This document shows positions 49,797 to 63,012 of a stretch of 64,000 nt of DNA, one piece after another. Position 1 is the stretch's first letter, and every line of letters starts with the position of its first letter. Position numbers and translations under genes: made by a program. The notes beneath the pieces were generated by a model. The model was not told the origin of the DNA. It saw only the letters and a program-made list of their open reading frames with translations, and made no database searches. Origin of the DNA: Thermodesulfovibrio sp. 3462-1 (GTDB lineage Bacteria > Nitrospirota > Thermodesulfovibrionia > Thermodesulfovibrionales > Thermodesulfovibrionaceae); contig NZ_CP144374.1 in NCBI RefSeq assembly GCF_040451425.1, forward strand, positions 744,001-808,000. The letters run 5' to 3'.

Positions 49797-50460
49797 TGTG
49801 TTCAAGAATAAATTTTTGAACTATCATGGAAGCTTTCGATATCTCTTTTAAACTTAGAAGTTCAGCTCTATCAGTAACTATATTACTAATGCTTCTTATT
49901 TCAATGCAAGGAATTTTATAAATCTCACAGACCTTTGCCACTGCTGCGCCTTCCATGTTTTCGCATATGCCATTGAAGTTTTTTTCAAGAAATATAGCTC
50001 TTTCAAGATTTCCTGTGCAGGATGAAACAGTAAGAAATGTTCCTTTTGGAAGGGTTTTTAAAAAATGAGGCACATAAAGAAGAATTTCTTCAGAATTCAA
50101 AAAAATAAACGAATCTATATTTGCATTACAATTTCTTAACAGTCCTTCATCAGCAAAGATTTCTTTTTCTGCTACTACAATACTTCCTATATCAAGTCCA
50201 GAGGAAGGATAGGCACCTCCTATGCCTGAAACAATAGTTCCTTTTATGGAGAATTTTTCAAAACAAATTACAGAAGCTAAAGTTGCCGAAGTTTTTCCAA
50301 TGCCTGAAATACATAAGAGTAAATCAACATCTTTTATTTTGCCTTTAATAAAGGATACAGTCTTTATTGAAAAAAACTGCTTATTGCTTAAACTGTTAAT
50401 AATTAATTCACATTCTTTTTCAGTGGCAAAAAATAGAGCTATCAATTTATGCTGCTTCAA
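49771..50460 (-). CDS. mqnB: futalosine hydrolase
   Basis: 229 residues, purine-nucleoside phosphorylase/MTA nucleosidase fold. VSGIGGAYPSSGLDIGSIVVAEKE followed by FADEGL, and ENMEGAAVAKVCEIYKIPCIEIRSISN, favour futalosine hydrolase over MTA/SAH nucleosidase. It removes hypoxanthine from futalosine in the alternative menaquinone pathway, consistent with an anaerobic respirer. It overlaps the coiled-coil gene by 14 bases, which is unexpected company. No other mqn gene is in the window. Confidence 0.82.
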   Translation of the reverse strand: MKQHKLIALFFATEKECELIINSLSNKQFFSIKTVSFIKGKIKDVDLLLCISGIGKTSATLASVICFEKFSIKGTIVSGIGGAYPSSGLDIGSIVVAEKEIFADEGLLRNCNANIDSFIFLNSEEILLYVPHFLKTLPKGTFLTVSSCTGNLERAIFLEKNFNGICENMEGAAVAKVCEIYKIPCIEIRSISNIVTDRAELLSLKEISKASMIVQKFILEHIKLFEESL

Positions 50461-51151
50461 GAGCTTTCAGTCTTTCTTCAAAATCTTTCATTCTTTGGGA
50501 TAAAGCTTTTCTTTCTTCAAGTAAGTCCTTTAAAACTCCTGCGAGATAGTCATTTTGTTTAAGGAGAAAGTCAAAGTCATACATTTTTAACTTTACCTTT
50601 ATATCTTCTAAATCACTGTGAACTTCTAACATGGAAAACCTGAGAGCTTCTCTTAGTTTTTCAAGTGTATTGGTAAATCTCTGCTCCATGCTCATCAGGT
50701 CAGCCTTTGTAGCCATCTCTTTCTTAATTTCTTCCACATCATTTTTAAGTATAGTTACATCATTTTTGAGCGTGGTTACATCATTTTTAAGGGTATTCAC
50801 ATCATTTTTAAGCATTTCCACGTCTTGTTTTAGGATTCCAACATCTTGTTTCAGTGTTTCCACATCTTTAACTAATCCCTTAATTTCCTCTTTCACGACA
50901 GCTCTTACTTCTTGTTGAACAATCGTTCTAATTTCCTCTTTCACGACAGCTCTTACTTCTTGTTGAACAATCGTTCTAATTTCCTCTTTCACGACAGTTT
51001 TTACTTCTTGCTGAACAATCGTTCTAATTTCCTCTTTCACGACAGTTTTTACTTCTTGCTGAACAATCGTTCTAATTTCCTCTTTCACAATAGTTTTTAC
51101 TTCTTCTCTTATAACTGTTCTCATTAACTCTGCTAATTTTTTTTCATCCAT
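50447..51151 (-). CDS. repeat-built coiled-coil protein
   Basis: 234 residues of almost pure helix. Residues 18-97 are five units of a 16-residue repeat of the type VKTVVKEEIRTIVQQE. Residues 96-144 are seven heptads of DVxxLKN type, giving a long parallel coiled coil. The rest (about 150-234) is charged helix ending in FEERLKALEAA. No membrane helix or known enzyme motif. Function unknown; a structural or oligomerising protein is the safest reading. Good SD (GGAGGT) and its own promoter upstream. Confidence 0.8.
   Translation of the reverse strand: MDEKKLAELMRTVIREEVKTIVKEEIRTIVQQEVKTVVKEEIRTIVQQEVKTVVKEEIRTIVQQEVRAVVKEEIRTIVQQEVRAVVKEEIKGLVKDVETLKQDVGILKQDVEMLKNDVNTLKNDVTTLKNDVTILKNDVEEIKKEMATKADLMSMEQRFTNTLEKLREALRFSMLEVHSDLEDIKVKLKMYDFDFLLKQNDYLAGVLKDLLEERKALSQRMKDFEERLKALEAA
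50720..50866 (-). repeat. 21-base repeats encoding seven coiled-coil heptads
   Basis: Seven 21-base units encode DVETLKQ, DVGILKQ, DVEMLKN, DVNTLKN, DVTTLKN, DVTILKN and DVEEIKK. The inner four (catcattttt-rich on the plus strand) are nearly identical in DNA, which suggests recent tandem duplication. Confidence 0.85.
50881..51119 (-). repeat. 48-base tandem repeat encoding 16-residue units
   Basis: About five copies of a 48-base unit, near 50881-50927, 50928-50975, 50976-51023, 51024-51071 and a diverged 51072-51119. Copies 1 and 2 differ from 3 and 4 mainly at one short stretch (RA versus KT codons). DNA identity is far above what the protein needs. Confidence 0.9.
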
Positions 51152-53286: not shown

Positions 53287-53358
53287 AGCGGGCGACGGGA
53301 TTCGAACCCGCGACCTTCAGCTTGGGAAGCTGACACTCTCCCGCTGAGTTACGCCCGC
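53287..53358 (-). tRNA. tRNA-Gly (anticodon CCC)
   Basis: Acceptor GCGGGCG pairs with CGCCCGC; D-loop AGCGGGAG; anticodon stem TCAGC with loop TTCCCAA, so anticodon CCC; T-arm GCGGG-TTCGAAT-CCCGT. CCA is not encoded. A promoter with a perfect -35 lies upstream at 53374-53403, and trmI follows on the same strand. Confidence 0.96.
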
Positions 53359-53927: not shown

Positions 53928-53999
53928 AGCCGGGAATGGGATTTGAACCCACGACCAGTCGATTACGAATCGACTGCTCTACCGCTGAGCTATCCCGGC
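53928..53999 (-). tRNA. tRNA-Thr (anticodon CGT)
   Basis: Acceptor GCCGGGA pairs with TCCCGGC; D-loop CAGCGGTAG; anticodon stem GTCGA with loop TTCGTAA, so anticodon CGT; T-arm GTGGG-TTCAAAT-CCCAT. CCA is not encoded. Follows the macro-domain gene by 4 bases on the same strand. Confidence 0.96.
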
Positions 54000-54003
54000 A
54001 TAT

Positions 54004-54531
54004 TTATATCTTATCAAACTCTTCTTTAAAGTATCGATAACTGTCTTCATCAAAAAGGCAGAATTCTACAATTTCCACAGTTGTATTCTGATTTTTTAGA
54101 TATTCTAACACTGTTTGAATTAAAATCTTTGCAACCATATCTTTGGGACATCCATATATTCCAGAGCTTATTGCAGGGAAGGATATGCTTTTTAATTTAT
54201 ATTCATTGGCAAGCCTGAGACTGCTTAATACCGCATTTCTGAGTTTTTCTTCTTCGTTGCCTTCACCCCATTTTGGTCCAACAGCATGAATAATATATTT
54301 TGCTTTTAAAGAACCAGCAGTGGTTATTGCTGCAGAACCTGTTGGTACAAAGCCAATTCTGTCACTTTCTTCTTGTATGATCTGTCCACCTTTTCTGACA
54401 ATTGCACCAGCTACTCCTCCACCGTGTTTGAGATAATTATTGGCAGCATTAACTATTGCATCTGTATCCCTTTCTGTAATGTCTCCAATAATTATCCGTA
54501 ATGTTTTTACATTAATTTTTTTCTCCTGCAT
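54004..54531 (-). CDS. macro-domain protein (ADP-ribose binding or deacetylase)
   Basis: 175 residues, a stand-alone macro domain. RIIIGDITERDTDAIVNAANNYLKHGGGVAGAI is the ADP-ribose-binding segment and ISSGIYGCPKDM the phosphate loop. The Asn-rich and GGGV loops favour the MacroD or YmdB class that removes O-acetyl or protein-linked ADP-ribose. It lies between tRNA-Leu and tRNA-Thr genes on the same strand, so it may be co-transcribed with them. Confidence 0.93.
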   Translation of the reverse strand: MQEKKINVKTLRIIIGDITERDTDAIVNAANNYLKHGGGVAGAIVRKGGQIIQEESDRIGFVPTGSAAITTAGSLKAKYIIHAVGPKWGEGNEEEKLRNAVLSSLRLANEYKLKSISFPAISSGIYGCPKDMVAKILIQTVLEYLKNQNTTVEIVEFCLFDEDSYRYFKEEFDKI

Positions 54532-54588: not shown

Positions 54589-54669
54589 TGCGAGAGGAGG
54601 GATTTGAACCCTCACGGATCTCTCCACTGGATTCTAAGTCCAGCGCGTCTGCCATTCCGCCACTCTCGC
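54589..54669 (-). tRNA. tRNA-Leu (anticodon TAG)
   Basis: Acceptor GCGAGAG pairs with CTCTCGC; anticodon stem CTGGA with loop CTTAGAA, so anticodon TAG; short class II variable arm with GGA/TCC stem; T-arm GAGGG-TTCAAAT-CCCTC. CCA is not encoded. Downstream of purD by 23 bases. Confidence 0.95.
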
Positions 54670-54692: not shown

Positions 54693-55958
54693 TTAAATAT
54701 TTAATCCAATGTCCTTTCTGTACTGCATGCCTTCAAAGTGAATTAACTCAACAGCGCTATAAGCTTTCTGCCTTGCTTCTTTTATATCTTTTCCTAAGGC
54801 AGTAACACCAAGAACTCTTCCTCCATTTGTTACAACTCTTCCGTTTTCATCAAATTTAGTACCTGCATGAAATACAATTACATCTTTTAATCTTTTAACC
54901 ATTTCAAGACCTTTAATAGGCAGTTCTTTCTTATATTTTCCAGGATATCCTTCTGAGGCAAGAATAACGCATAAAGATGATTTATCTTTCCATTTTACAT
55001 CTATTTTATTCAACTTTTGCTCTGTTATTGCCATAAAAATATCAACTAAATCAGTTTCAAGCCTTGGCAAAATTACCTGTGTTTCAGGATCACCAAATCG
55101 GCAATTAAACTCAAGCACATAGGGTTTGTTATTGACAATCATAAGTCCTGCATAAAGAATGCCTTTATAAACTATTCCTTCAGATTTTAATCCTCTTATT
55201 GTTGGCTTAATTATTGTTTCAATGATTTCTTTTTCAAGCTCTGCAGTAATAATTGGATTTGGACTGAATGTTCCCATGCCTCCTGTATTTGGTCCTTCAT
55301 CATTGTCAAGAAGTCTTTTGTGATCCTTTGATGTAACCATGGATACTATATTTTTACCATCTGTAAAAACAAGATATGAAGCTTCTTTACCCTGAAGATA
55401 TTCTTCAATTACCACTTTATCTCCAGCAGAGCCAAAAATTTTTTCTTTCATAATAAGTTTTAATGCCTCAATTGCTTCTTCATACCTATGGCATACAAAA
55501 ACTCCTTTGCCTGCTGCAAGTCCATTTGCTTTTACAACAATTGGTGTGCCTTTTAGTCTTATATATTCTTCGGCGTGAGTGTAAGAGGTAAAGACTTTAT
55601 ATTCTGCTGTTGGTATTTTATGTCTTTTCATAAATTCCTTTGCAAACACTTTGCTACTTTCAAGTTGAGCAGCTGCTTTTGTTGGACCTATTATTTTTCT
55701 TCCCTCTTTCTGAAATGTATCAACAATTCCCTTTGCAAGGGGGTCTTCAGGTCCAACTACTGTAAGATCAATCCACTCATATTTAACAAAGTCAACCAGA
55801 CCAGAAAGATCTTTGTTCTCAATTTCTATGCATTCTGCCAGATCTGAAATTCCTGCATTTCCAGGCACACAGTAAATTTTATCAACCACTCTTGATTGGG
55901 CAAGCTTCCAGACAATGGCATGTTCTCTTCCCCCTGACCCTATAACAAGGACTTTCAT
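54693..55958 (-). CDS. purD: phosphoribosylamine-glycine ligase
   Basis: 421 residues, ATP-grasp ligase for the second step of purine synthesis. VLVIGSGGREHAIVWKLAQS opens the protein, and KANGLAAGKGVFV, GNTGGMG-type segment (here GPNTGGMGTFSP), and LEFNCRFGDPETQVILPRL follow. Overlaps the protoglobin gene by 4 bases, so it belongs to the same operon. Last protein gene of the nucleotide operon in this window. Confidence 0.97.
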   Translation of the reverse strand: MKVLVIGSGGREHAIVWKLAQSRVVDKIYCVPGNAGISDLAECIEIENKDLSGLVDFVKYEWIDLTVVGPEDPLAKGIVDTFQKEGRKIIGPTKAAAQLESSKVFAKEFMKRHKIPTAEYKVFTSYTHAEEYIRLKGTPIVVKANGLAAGKGVFVCHRYEEAIEALKLIMKEKIFGSAGDKVVIEEYLQGKEASYLVFTDGKNIVSMVTSKDHKRLLDNDEGPNTGGMGTFSPNPIITAELEKEIIETIIKPTIRGLKSEGIVYKGILYAGLMIVNNKPYVLEFNCRFGDPETQVILPRLETDLVDIFMAITEQKLNKIDVKWKDKSSLCVILASEGYPGKYKKELPIKGLEMVKRLKDVIVFHAGTKFDENGRVVTNGGRVLGVTALGKDIKEARQKAYSAVELIHFEGMQYRKDIGLNI

Positions 55959-56845
55959 CTTCTGTCCTCCTCTGTCTTTTTTACTAACCAGTAAACTATA
56001 CCCATTATAAGAATAGCAGCTATCAATGAAGTTATAAATTCAATTGTTTCATGTTTTAATGTTGCTATCATCGTCTCTCTTATTACAGTAACAAGAGCAA
56101 CTCCAACAAAAACACTTATTTTGAATTTTCCTCCTTTAAGATGTGTAATTTCAGTGTTTAAAAGTTCAAGCATAACCCATAGAATAAGAACTGAACCAAG
56201 TGCTGTTACGATTGTCTGCTCTAATTTACCTGATAATATTTCATATATATCTTTTCCGCAAAGATAAGTAACAGCAACAGTAATAATGCTCAATCCAACT
56301 ATTAGTACAAGACTTACAACTTGAGAAAATATCTCACCATATCTTACAAGTTGAATTTTTATTCTGTATGCAGGGGAATAACCTTTTATTTCTTCCTCAA
56401 GGTATGCAGAGGTTATAATATCAAGATTTATGTCAAGTATTTTATTAATTGAGATTAAATATTTTTCTCTATTATGTTCCATTTCCTCACAAAGTATATC
56501 AACGCAGGCATTTCTTATAATATTTATTGCTCTTGTCATAAAATGAGGATCTACACCAACTTTTTCATGCTTTTGACCAATTCTTATCAGAGTATCGTAA
56601 AAGTAGTTATCATATCTACCAGAAAAAAGACTTATAAACCAGGTTCTTACAAGTCTCATTACATGCTTTATTAATGATTCATTTTTAAAAATTCTTTTTG
56701 CTGAATCTGTCTGGATGATCCATTGATAGAGAGCTCCTACAACTTTTTCAGCTCTTTTTTCCATAAGAGGCTTAAGTTCTGATAGCCTGGCCTCATCCTC
56801 TTTTGTAAAATAATAATTTGCTTTAATTTCTTTAAAAGGTCTCAT
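55955..56845 (-). CDS. protoglobin-domain protein fused to a PsiE-like membrane domain
   Basis: 296 residues. Residues 1-155 match a protoglobin/globin-sensor fold, with a likely proximal heme His at position 93 in LIRIGQKHEKVGVDP. Residues 175-290 hold four membrane helices, where LELLNTEITHLKGGKFKISVF and VALVTVIRETMI resemble the phosphate-starvation-inducible PsiE family. It could be a membrane gas or redox sensor. It is embedded between purH (1-base gap) and purD (4-base overlap), so it is expressed with purine synthesis. No GGDEF, kinase or other output domain is present. Confidence 0.75.
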   Translation of the reverse strand: MRPFKEIKANYYFTKEDEARLSELKPLMEKRAEKVVGALYQWIIQTDSAKRIFKNESLIKHVMRLVRTWFISLFSGRYDNYFYDTLIRIGQKHEKVGVDPHFMTRAINIIRNACVDILCEEMEHNREKYLISINKILDINLDIITSAYLEEEIKGYSPAYRIKIQLVRYGEIFSQVVSLVLIVGLSIITVAVTYLCGKDIYEILSGKLEQTIVTALGSVLILWVMLELLNTEITHLKGGKFKISVFVGVALVTVIRETMIATLKHETIEFITSLIAAILIMGIVYWLVKKTEEDRR

Positions 56846-56846
56846 C

Positions 56847-58427
56847 TTAGTGTCTGAAATGTCTTATTCCTGTAAATACCATTGCCATACCATATTGGTC
56901 TGCTGCATCAATTACTTCCTGATCTCTAACAGAGCCACCTGGCTGAATTATAGCTGTGACTCCATTCTGAGCAAGGACATCAATGTTATCTCTGAATGGG
57001 AAGAATCCATCAGATGCAACAACAGTTCCTTTTAATGAACTCAAGGCATGCATGGCACCTATCTTTGCTGAAAATACTCTGCTTGTCTGACCAATGCCAA
57101 GCCCCACTGTTCTGTCCTCTCTTGCATAGACAATAGCATTTGATTTTACATGTTTGCAAACCTTCCATGCAAATTTCAAAGCTCGCCATTCATCCTCTGT
57201 GGGCTTTCTTTTTGTTACAATCTTAGCCTGAGCAAATTCATCCTCAAGAGTATCCCACTGCTGGACTATGAATCCACCGATAATTCTCTTTAAATCAAAA
57301 CCTGATGGTTTAATTTTATCAGAAAGAGCTGGAAATTTCAGTAATCTCAGATTTTTCTTTTTTGAAAAAATTTTCAATGATTCTTCATCAAATCCAGGCG
57401 CAATAATAACTTCATAAAAAGTTTGAACAATTTCTTCTGCTGTGGTTTTATCTACAACTCTGTTAAAAGCAATTATTCCACCAAAAGCACTTACAGGATC
57501 ACATTCAAAGGCTCTTTTATAAGCATCCAGAGGATTTTCAGCAATAGCAACTCCGCAGGGGTTATTGTGTTTTACAATTACACAGACAGGTTCTTCAAAT
57601 TCCGAAGCTAAAAGCACTGCTGAATGAGTGTCAAGATAGTTATTAAAGGACATTTCTTTGCCCTGTAATACTTCTGCATCTATCAATGATGGTGTTTCAT
57701 TCAATGCATAAAGTGCAGCTTTCTGATGAGGATTTTCTCCGTATCTCAATGTTTGCACCATTCTTAATAGCAATATCCAGTCTTCTCTAAAACCTGAAGG
57801 TTGAGTGTTGAAGGCTGAAGAGCTGATTTTATCAAAATAATCAGCAATTAAGGCATCATATCTTGCCGTGTGAGAAAAGACCTTCTTTGCAAGTTCAAAT
57901 CTTTTCTCAATAGAAGCTTCTCCCTTTTTAAGATCCTCAATTATGGAAGGATAATCATCAGGGTCAACAATAACTATCACATCTTTGTAGTTTTTAGCAG
58001 CAGCCCTCAGAAGGGTAGGTCCGCCAATGTCAATGTTTTCTATTGCTTCTTCTAAAAATTGCTGAAGGCTCAGTGCTGAAGGCTGAAGTAAATGTTTTTT
58101 TGTAACAGATTCAAATGGATAGAGATTGACAACAACTATGTCAATAGGTTTAATTCCAAGCTTTTCCATTGAATCTATGTCATTTTTATTGTCCCTTCTT
58201 GCAAGTATTCCACCGTGAATAAGTGGATGAAGGGTTTTTATCCTTCCATCCATAATTTCAGGAAATCCTGTATACTCTGAGACATCTATTACATTTATAT
58301 TAGCTTCCCTTAAAATTTTTGCCGTTCCACCTGTGGAAATAATCTCCACCCCAAGCTGAACAAGTTCCTTTGCAAAATCTATTAATCCCCTTTTGTCAGA
58401 TACACTTATTAATGCTCTTTTTATCAC
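56847..58427 (-). CDS. purH: bifunctional AICAR transformylase / IMP cyclohydrolase with two repeat inserts
   Basis: 526 residues, last two steps to [21 protein letters not shown] and the IMP cyclohydrolase part ([25 protein letters not shown]) precede the transformylase part with KHNNPCGVA. Compared with E. coli PurH there are two extra short segments, one of 9 residues (LQPSALSLQ) and one around [11 protein letters not shown], encoded by two copies of the same repeat in different frames. Overlaps carB by 4 bases. Confidence 0.97.
57794..57820 (-). repeat. 27-base repeat inside purH, copy B
   Basis: 24 of 27 bases match copy A at 58062-58088. It encodes part of [10 protein letters not shown], starting at codon position 2. 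Confidence 0.8.
58062..58088 (-). repeat. 27-base repeat inside purH, copy A
   Basis: Encodes LQPSALSLQ, starting at codon position 1. Internally built from CTGAAGGCT-like subunits on the plus strand. Confidence 0.8.
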
Positions 58428-61400
58428 TCGAGCACCTCCCTGTGGTATTCCTGTATTGATTTTACTTTAATTTTACTTTCTTTAAGCCGTTTTATGGCTT
58501 TAATAATTGCGTTAGCTCCTGAAATGGTTGTGGTGTAAGGAATTTTATATTGCAATGCTCCTCTTCTTATATACATTGAGTCCTTTTGAGCTTGCTTTCC
58601 AAAAACCGTGTTTATTATAAAATGAATCTGTCTGTTTTTTATTAAATCAAGGACATGGGGACGACCCTCTTGAAGTTTATTTATAGTTTCTACATTTAAT
58701 CCTCTTTCTTTCAAAAATCTGGCAGTTCCACGAGTGGCAATCACTGTAAAACCAAGTTCTATAAACTCCTTTGCAATAGGAACAACAAGAGCTTTATCTT
58801 TATCCTTAACACTTATAAATACTTTTCCACTTAAAGGAATTTTACCCATTGCACTCATCTGAGCCTTGGCATAAGCAAGTCCAAAGTCTTCATCTATTCC
58901 CATTACTTCACCAGTTGATTTCATCTCAGGACCGAGAATAACATCCACTTCAGGGAATTTATCAAATGGAAAGATCGCCTCTTTCACTGTAACATAGGGC
59001 ATTTTTATATGACTTGTAAGTCCAAGTTCCTTTAATGTTTTGCCAACCATAATCTTTGATGCCATTGCTGCAAGAGGAATTCCGATGCTTTTGCTGACAT
59101 AGGGAATTGTTCTTGACGCACGGGGATTTACTTCTAAAACATAAACCTCTCCATCTTTTACAGCATACTGAACATTCATCAATCCTTTTACTTCAAGTTC
59201 CTTTGCAATTGAAATGGTTTCTTCTTTAATTTTTTCAATTATCTCTTCTGGAAGACTGTAAGGAGGAAGTGAGCAAGCAGAGTCTCCAGAATGAATTCCT
59301 GCTTCTTCAATGTGCTGCATTATACCTGCCACAATCACATCAACTCCATCGGAGATTGCATCAACATCCACCTCAATGGCATCTTCAAGATATCTATCAA
59401 TTAGCACTGGATGGTCTTCTGAGGCTTTTACTGCCTCTCTCATATATCTACGCAATGATTCTTCATCATAAACAATCTCCATAGCTCTTCCACCAAGCAC
59501 ATATGATGGTCTTACAAGAATGGGATATCCAAGTTCATTTGCTATTCTTAAAGCTTCTTCAAGGGATATGGCTGTTCCACTTGGAGGCTGTTTTAGATTT
59601 AATTTATCCACCAACTCTTTAAATCTTTTTCTGTCCTCAGCTCTGTCGATGGCATCAGCCTTTGTTCCAAGAATATTTACACCATGAGCTTCAAGAGCCT
59701 TTGCAAGTTTTAAAGGAGTCTGACCTCCGAATTGCAGTATCACTCCAAGAGGTCTTTCTCTTTCAATAATATGTAAAACATCCTCGAGTGTTAGTGGTTC
59801 AAAATAAAGTCTGTCTGAAGTATCATAATCAGTGCTCACTGTCTCTGGATTACAGTTTATCATTATTGTTTCGTATCCAAGCTCTTTTAAACCAAAAACT
59901 GCATGAACACAGCAGTAGTCAAACTCAATTCCCTGTCCGATTCTATTGGGTCCTGAACCAAGAATTATTACTTTATTTTTATTTTCAGTAGGAGGAGCAT
60001 CAGCATCTACTATGGTTTGGTTTTTAAAGGTAGTGGCTTCAGGTTGAAGACGATAAAATTCTTTTTCATAGCATGAATACATATAGGGAGTATAGGCTAC
60101 AAACTCTGCTGCACAGGTATCAACAAGTTTGTATACTGGTTTAATTTTAAGGTTTGCTCTTAATTGCCTTATTTCTTCTTCTTTTTTTTCAGTAAGCATT
60201 GCTATTCTTTTGTCAGAAATGCCGTTTTGTTTAGCTTCAAAGAGAAGATCATAGTTTAATTCTTTAGTTTTCAGTCTGTTCTCAATCTCTAAGATTTCTT
60301 TTATGTTGTTTAAAAACCATGGGTCAATACCGCTCAATTCATATATCTCCTTTATACTGAATCCTCTACGAAGAGCCTCTGCTAAGTACCAAATCCTTTC
60401 AGCATTAGGATTTTTAATTCTCCATCTTATTTCATCATCAGAAGCATTGAGTTCTTCAAATCCGTATGAGCCAATCTCAAGGGAACGAATTGCCTTTCCA
60501 AGTGCTTCTTTAAATGTCCTTCCTATTGCCATTACTTCTCCAACTGATTTCATCTGGGTTGTAAGCACAGGATTTGCCTCTGGAAATTTTTCAAAAGTAA
60601 ATCTTGGAATTTTAACGACCACATAATCAAGGGTAGGTTCAAAGCTTGCAGGTGTTATTCTTGTTATGTCATTGGGAATTTCATCCAGTGTGTATCCAAT
60701 AGCAAGTTTTGCCGCAATTTTTGCAATTGGAAATCCTGTTGCCTTACTTGCTAAAGCAGAACTCCGGGATACTCTTGGATTCATCTCTATTATACACATT
60801 CTTCCATTTTCAGGATTTACTGCAAACTGAATGTTGCTTCCACCTGTGTCAACGCCTATCTCTCTTATTGCTTTAATGGCACTGTCACGCATAACTTGAT
60901 ATTCTCTGTCTGTTAGAGTCTGTGCCGGGGCAACAGTGATGGAGTCTCCTGTATGAACACCCATGGGATCAAAGTTCTCAATTGAGCAGATTATAACAAC
61001 ATTGTCTGCTCTATCTCTCATTACCTCAAGCTCATACTCTTTCCATCCAAGAAGACTTTCTTCTACAAGAACCTGACTAATAGGACTCAGCTTAAGCGCT
61101 CTTTCAAGAAGTTCTTTAAACTCTTCTATGTTGTATGCGATTCCTCCTCCAGTTCCACCCAGAGTAAAAGCAGGCCTTAAAATTGCAGGAAAACCTATCC
61201 ATTCAATTAGTTCAAGTCCTTCTTTTAAATTATGAACTGTTGCTGAGCGAGGGACATCAAGCCCTATTTTTGTCATTGCCTGTTTAAAAAGTTCTCTGTC
61301 CTCTGCTTTTTTTATAGCCTGTAGATTTGCTCCAATAAGCTCAACAGAGTATTTATCAAGGATTCCTGCCTCTCCAAGCTCTACGGCAAGATTTAATGCA

Positions 61401-61681
61401 GTCTGGCCACCCAATGTGGGAAGCAAAGCATCAGGTCTTTCCTTCTCTATAATTAATTCAAGGATTTCTGCAGTCAAAGGTTCAATGTAAGTAGCATCAG
61501 CCATTGAAGGGTCTGTCATAATTGTTGCGGGATTAGAATTTACGAGCACTACTTCGTAGCCTTCCTGCTTTAAAGCTTTACAGGCTTGAGCACCAGAGTA
61601 ATCAAATTCACAAGCTTGACCAATTATTATTGGACCAGAACCGATAATCATTATTTTTTTAATATCTGTTTTCTTTGGCAT
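58424..61681 (-). CDS. carB: carbamoyl-phosphate synthase large subunit
   Basis: 1085 residues with two ATP-grasp halves. Each half opens in the same way: [21 protein letters not shown] in the first and [21 protein letters not shown] in the second. The oligomerisation domain lies between them, and a C-terminal MGS-type allosteric domain follows ([17 protein letters not shown]). Supplies carbamoyl phosphate for arginine and pyrimidine synthesis with CarA. Separated from carA by the 79-residue gene. Confidence 0.98.
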
Positions 61682-61929: not shown

Positions 61930-63012
61930 TCACGATGTTTTTACGATTTCCATAAATCTTTCAAATACATCAAGGGCATCATTTGGTCCTGGTCCTGCTT
62001 CAGGATGATGCTGAACCGAGAAAATTGGATACTCCACATGCTCCATTCCTTCTTCTGTTCCATCATAAAGGTTTTTATGAGTCAGCCTTACCTGATCTTT
62101 AAGACTTGCAATATCAACACAGTAGTTGTGATTTTGAGCTGTAATGGAAATTCTTCCTGTTTTTAAGTCCTTTACTGGATGATTGCCTCCATGATGACCG
62201 AATTTAAGTTTGTATGTCCTTCCTCCCAGAGCAAGTCCTAAAAGCTGATGACCAAGACAGATTCCGAATAGAGGTTTTTTTCCTATAATTTTTTTAACAT
62301 TTTCCAATGCGTAAGAGAGAATTTGAGGGTCTCCAGGACCATTGCTTAACATCACACATGAAGGATTCATCTCAAGAACATATTCAGCAGGTGTTTTTCC
62401 GGGGACAACATAGACGGAAAATCCGACTCTTTTTAAATTTCGGAGTATGCTCAGTTTTACTCCATAGTCATAAACCACACACAGAGGTGCCCCCTCTTTA
62501 TTGAAGTACATGTAAGGCTCTTTACACATCATAGCACTGACATGGTCAATCTCTGAGATATCTGGATGGGCAAGAACTTTTTTATATAAGCTTACAGGAT
62601 CAAGGTCTTCTGTTGATAAAATTCCCATCTGGGCACCTTTGTCCCTTAGATGTTTTGTCAATGCTCTGGTATCAATTCCCTGAATTCCTACAATGCCATA
62701 TTTTTTAAGATACTCTTCGAGACTTCGCTCTGCTCTCCAGTTACTTGGATAATCTTTATATTCTCTCACAACAAATCCTTCAACTTTTGGTCCTCCATAA
62801 GATTCTACATCTTCATCATTTACTCCGTAATTTCCTATTTGAGTATAGGTCATTACCACAATCTGTCCCTTATATGAAGGATCAGTTAGTATTTCCTGAT
62901 AACCGGTCATGGATGTATTAAAAACAACTTCTCCAATGGATTCTCCCTCTGCTCCAAAGGAGTATCCTTCAAACACTGTTCCATCTTTTAGAACCAGCAT
63001 TGCTTTTTTCAT
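61930..63012 (-). CDS. carA: carbamoyl-phosphate synthase small subunit
   Basis: 360 residues. Glutamine amidotransferase that feeds ammonia to CarB. The catalytic Cys is in LFGICLGHQLLGLALGG, with His and Glu in FSVQHHPEAGPGPND. The N-terminal CarA domain shows GYSFGAEGESIGEVVFNTSMTG-type sequence (from about residue 12). Overlaps pyrC by 4 bases. Confidence 0.97.
   Translation of the reverse strand: MKKAMLVLKDGTVFEGYSFGAEGESIGEVVFNTSMTGYQEILTDPSYKGQIVVMTYTQIGNYGVNDEDVESYGGPKVEGFVVREYKDYPSNWRAERSLEEYLKKYGIVGIQGIDTRALTKHLRDKGAQMGILSTEDLDPVSLYKKVLAHPDISEIDHVSAMMCKEPYMYFNKEGAPLCVVYDYGVKLSILRNLKRVGFSVYVVPGKTPAEYVLEMNPSCVMLSNGPGDPQILSYALENVKKIIGKKPLFGICLGHQLLGLALGGRTYKLKFGHHGGNHPVKDLKTGRISITAQNHNYCVDIASLKDQVRLTHKNLYDGTEEGMEHVEYPIFSVQHHPEAGPGPNDALDVFERFMEIVKTS

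Follow-up and report, generated by a model that had tools for sequence, protein, structure and literature searches.

The product of a gene lying between purH and purD in Thermodesulfovibrio sp. 3462-1 (here called X) is probably a membrane-anchored globin-coupled sensor that uses a PsiE domain as its output, and the gene seems to have been inserted once at this site and kept there for co-expression. The domain identity of the protein, its HisF8 residue, its conservation and the common insertion point of the gene are observed. Heme binding, the direction of signalling and the role of PsiE are inferred, as is retention by co-expression rather than for control of purine synthesis.

The gene and its operon

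The window (the whole 64-kb stretch of DNA that was analysed) contains X on the minus strand at positions 55955–56845, as an open reading frame of 296 amino acids with an ATG start and Pfam matches. The start methionine is kept in relatives, and comparison with five congeners gives a whole-gene dN/dS of about 0.08–0.12, the differences falling chiefly at third codon positions. X is a genuine gene under selection; a chance open reading frame is ruled out by the dN/dS of about 0.1. It is the sole protoglobin gene in the 1.82-Mb genome, and its protein is present in a single copy.

X is part of a minus-strand run with the order carA-carB-purH-X-purD, the neighbours of which were identified with NCBIfam equivalog models: carA (61930–63012), carB (58424–61681), purH (56847–58427; PRK00881, E 5.5e-221) and purD (54693–55958; TIGR00877, E 1.2e-172). 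A reading made earlier from the sequence only had X coupled by overlap to both purD and purH. This holds for purD, the start of which overlaps the X stop by 4 nt (ATGA), but the purH junction is tight and non-overlapping: in TAAGATG the purH TAA is separated by one base from the X ATG. The carB and purH genes also overlap by 4 nt (58424–58427), and an AGGAGG motif upstream of purD sits within the 3' end of X. An Rfam scan of the window returns tRNAs and nothing else, so no known riboswitch accounts for the operon. Promoter and terminator scans performed no better than on shuffled sequence.

Globin and membrane domains

Residues 5–152 of X (56390–56833, minus strand) form a protoglobin (heme sensor) domain, matching Pfam Protoglobin (PF11563) with E 3.5e-27 and 95.8 bits against a cut-off of 25. 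Among solved sequences the closest is the GsGCS globin domain from Geobacter sulfurreducens, 2w31 (E 2e-27), and the same structure is the top Foldseek match (TM 0.92 of target, rmsd 1.7) to an AlphaFold model of X built from 21 relatives (mean pLDDT 79, pTM 0.52). The candidate proximal heme ligand, HisF8, is His93 (56567–56569, minus strand), which is unvarying in 105 of 105 aligned sequences including GsGCS; His101 is present in 104 of the 105. The globin domain is predicted to bind heme.

The distal side of the pocket is much less uniform. The heme of GsGCS is bis-histidyl, with His66(E11) and HisF8 as ligands (PMC4476040). The alignment column of this histidine (topological E11) holds Val66 in X (56648–56650, minus strand), and thus the bis-His pocket of GsGCS is not present. 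Histidine at E11 is carried by the Geobacter-side copies and by a few from Nitrospirota, and most of the fusion family lacks it; depending on the clade, the position is occupied by His, Gln, Leu, Ile or Val. Tyr40 of X (56726–56728, minus strand) aligns with TyrB10 of the oxygen-binding sensor AfGcHK, a tyrosine that stabilises bound oxygen there and in HemAT. This position also differs by clade: Tyr is found in five of six Thermodesulfovibrio sequences, in the clades with ndk or a universal stress protein as neighbour, and in roughly two-thirds of the unlinked copies outside these clades, and the remaining purine-linked copies and those linked to a CBS-domain gene have His, Ser, Asn, Asp or Glu. 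Since the distal pocket varies in this way among clades, a single common ligand is doubtful, and the ligand may differ from one clade to another.

The C-terminal part of X (residues 176–292; 55970–56320, minus strand) is a PsiE domain (PF06146) with E 1.4e-23 and 83.8 bits against a gathering cut-off of 23.9; on the NCBIfam PsiE equivalog NF002763 the protein scores 20.6 bits, below the 138-bit cut-off. The sequence-only reading, which joined a heme-globin-like domain to a four-helix PsiE-like membrane domain, is therefore borne out by the HMM test, both domains being above cut-off, and by hydropathy peaks and models that give about four hydrophobic helices (modelled at 158–204, 208–236, 243–263 and 268–295). 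Its remark that X lacks an output domain agrees with Pfam, which finds no catalytic one. The two domains are connected by residues 126–175 (56321–56470, minus strand), covered by AlphaFold helices 126–156 and 158–204, and the final globin helix of the model continues nearly uninterrupted into the first transmembrane helix (TM1).

Eight residues of the PsiE part are invariant in 104 fusions: Leu185, Gly217, Trp223, Glu227, Gly238, Phe246, Arg256 and Gly282. Two of these are charged, Glu227 at the end of TM2 (56165–56167, minus strand) and Arg256 in TM3 (56078–56080, minus strand), each found in 104 of 104. Equivalents of both occur in E. coli PsiE (b4030; PF06146) and in 13 stand-alone PsiE proteins from the same taxonomic order as X; the E. 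coli protein likewise has the Glu in TM2 and the Arg in TM3, and differs from X in that X is fused to a globin. The pair is thus a hallmark of the PsiE family and not of the fusion. No His or Cys is invariant in the PsiE part of the 104 fusions, the best being His235 (77%) and His265 (about 63%), which argues against a membrane heme.

In the proposed mechanism, the cytoplasmic protoglobin would hold heme on HisF8 and would shift its state upon gas binding or redox change. The signal would then travel along the helix that leads from the globin into TM1, and the four-helix PsiE domain, in which Glu227 and Arg256 are invariant, would act as the output. A single insertion would have placed X between the purH and purD genes of a pre-existing purH-purD(-purE) operon, where translation running on from purH and into purD would ensure steady co-expression and so account for its retention. 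To our knowledge, PsiE has no proven signalling activity. A literature search found no established function for PsiE and no paper pairing PsiE with a globin-coupled sensor, GsGCS being named only in passing.

Distribution of the fusion and its link to purine genes

The architecture described in the sequence-only reading is not new, being the layout of the known GsGCS-type sensors. A fusion-profile search finds it in 60 of the 295 genomes from the phylum of the window and in 52 of 395 genomes of a second phylum, entered via locus L007 (a single-protein scan of named genome contigs came to six loci only). Geobacter-side copies that are 64.5–68% identical to the GsGCS globin have protoglobin and PsiE in about 300 amino acids where tested, and in both L203 (68% identical) and L145 (64.5%) the two domains are above cut-off. 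G. sulfurreducens itself was not found among the 48 family genomes searched, in which the best match is 68%. The globin-PsiE architecture is already known and widespread.

GsGCS is reported to end in a membrane domain whose function is not known, and its globin structure (PDB 2W31) was reportedly determined by Pesce et al. in 2009. Because close relatives of GsGCS have both domains, X is probably a sensor of the GsGCS kind, which has been partly crystallised from Geobacter. The two are alike in globin fold and sequence and in the protoglobin-PsiE layout, as judged from the near relatives of GsGCS; they differ at E11, where GsGCS pairs HisE11 with HisF8 and X has valine. X also shares the globin fold and HisF8 with AfGcHK, HemAT, DosC and BpeGReg, which signal through a kinase, a chemotaxis domain or diguanylate cyclases and not through a membrane PsiE domain.

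The order purH-X-purD is found in 16 of 16 Thermodesulfovibrio genomes and in members of four further GTDB families of the order (f5, f7, f8 and f12), which rules out an accident of one genome. Across these five families, 30 genomes have the full fusion precisely between purH and purD, and one more has a shortened form there; the order is X-purD-purE in a sixth family (f6) and X-purH-purD in one f12 genome. It is fair to call the presence of such a gene in a purine operon unexpected, as the sequence-only reading did, but the linkage is old and conserved in five families. Among 31 genomes without the linkage that were checked, purH and purD are directly adjacent in about 19, often followed by purE, which indicates that X entered a pre-existing operon. 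As the junction is exact every time, a single insertion, followed by losses or relocations, is likelier than repeated insertions; on a tree of 104 rows made by a quick method, the purine linkage needs five changes. A single ancestral insertion that was maintained for co-expression is the more likely account of the purH/purD placement.

In genome G150 (L102, 5215–5649, minus strand) an in-frame deletion has removed nearly the whole globin, leaving a 144-residue open reading frame made of residues 1–22 and an intact PsiE, still between purH and purD. Unless it is an assembly fault (the genome is represented by a single assembly), this suggests that PsiE can work alone at this position. In several families purH is shortened to about 200 amino acids and has the IMP cyclohydrolase half only (L045, 5392–5988; L046, 6893–7504; L047, 6890–7489; and further loci), and the formyltransferase half must be encoded elsewhere or replaced in these families.

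Other clades have other neighbours, as would be expected if the purine setting were unneeded for function. In the second phylum, ndk is directly upstream of X at 13 loci, and downstream there are usually rlmN and genes for methylthioadenosine phosphorylase (MTAP) and a PfkB-type kinase. That nucleotide genes recur near X is suggestive, yet housekeeping genes are often neighbours. In family f26 the fusion has genes for a universal stress protein and a cation ATPase beside it. In family f23, 13 genomes (L068–L077, L079, L080 and L082) have a gene for a protein with two CBS domains adjoining the fusion. Whereas X is in a purine operon, the fusion gene of several Geobacter-side genomes is tail to tail with hemH, which encodes ferrochelatase (L145, L146, L204, L206, L207, L209 and L214); a link to heme supply is possible.

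Alternative explanations, significance and neighbouring features

The position of X invites the proposal that it is tied functionally to the metabolism of purines or nucleotides. PsiE would then adjust purine synthesis in response to gas or redox state, for example by anchoring PurH or PurD to the membrane or by transporting a substrate. The exact purH-X-purD order in five GTDB families and X-purD-purE in a sixth are in favour of it, together with the order ndk-X-rlmN-MTAP-pfkB in another phylum, and the long stay at purH/purD and these ndk and MTAP neighbours may reflect a real purine link. Some PurF enzymes have an oxygen-sensitive Fe-S cluster, so that oxygen sensing could matter to purine synthesis. 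However, many close relatives are away from purine genes (the CBS and universal stress protein clades and the Geobacter-side copies beside hemH), many genomes have purH-purD without X, housekeeping genes are frequent chance neighbours and one inherited insertion covers the five families. A functional tie is therefore considered unlikely.

The remaining alternatives concern the membrane part. The sequence-only reading suggested that it may act as a channel, and an ion channel or transporter gated by the globin would suit four hydrophobic helices with the invariant Glu227 and Arg256 beside or within them. Modelled with 68 relatives (pLDDT 83, pTM 0.64), the PsiE domain has no significant fold match among solved structures by Foldseek or VIA, and a PsiE profile search of solved structures returned nothing significant. 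The best Foldseek row is an Orai channel chain, at a non-significant E of 1.4, and Orai reaches a VIA Z of 7.5–8.1, where values up to about 9 are in the noise range of helical bundles; the likeness to Orai was dropped as noise. As no channel matches significantly in structure or sequence and no conserved pore motif was recognised, this proposal is decidedly improbable. It is very improbable that X, instead of being a sensor, scavenges oxygen or nitric oxide as a membrane-bound globin supplied with electrons by the membrane. Thermodesulfovibrio is an anaerobic genus, and the anaerobic hosts, the single protoglobin in the genome and the missing classical output domain would fit such a role, but the PsiE part has no invariant His or Cys to carry heme or a metal, there is no reductase domain and conservation is centred on the acid-base pair. 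A membrane-anchored sensor with PsiE as its output is preferred.

The boldest proposal, that a heme-globin gas or redox sensor tunes purine nucleotide metabolism through PsiE (e.g., by docking PurH and PurD or moving a metabolite) and that PsiE proteins generally are membrane effectors built on the Glu-Arg pair, is a long shot. If it were true, the purH/purD junction and the ndk/MTAP surroundings would represent a single link in two forms. The PsiE membrane family is widespread, and a built-in heme switch offers a way to toggle it and learn its role; the conserved position in the purine operon leads to a specific and testable hypothesis. So far as the literature searched shows, the old and exact purH/purD linkage, the Glu-Arg pair common to PsiE proteins and the clade-specific heme pockets are new.

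The genes downstream of purD include three tRNA genes (53287–53358, 53928–53999 and 54589–54669, minus strand) and a macro-domain gene (54004–54531, minus strand) that comes after purD and a tRNA. In genome G019 a homologue of the latter (65% identical; L042, 5427–5990) lies next to the globin-PsiE gene in convergent orientation, and the fusion there is unlinked to purine genes. A 48-bp repeat (4.7 copies, 97%) occupies positions 50881–51105 of the window, within a gene for a predicted coiled-coil protein (50447–51151).
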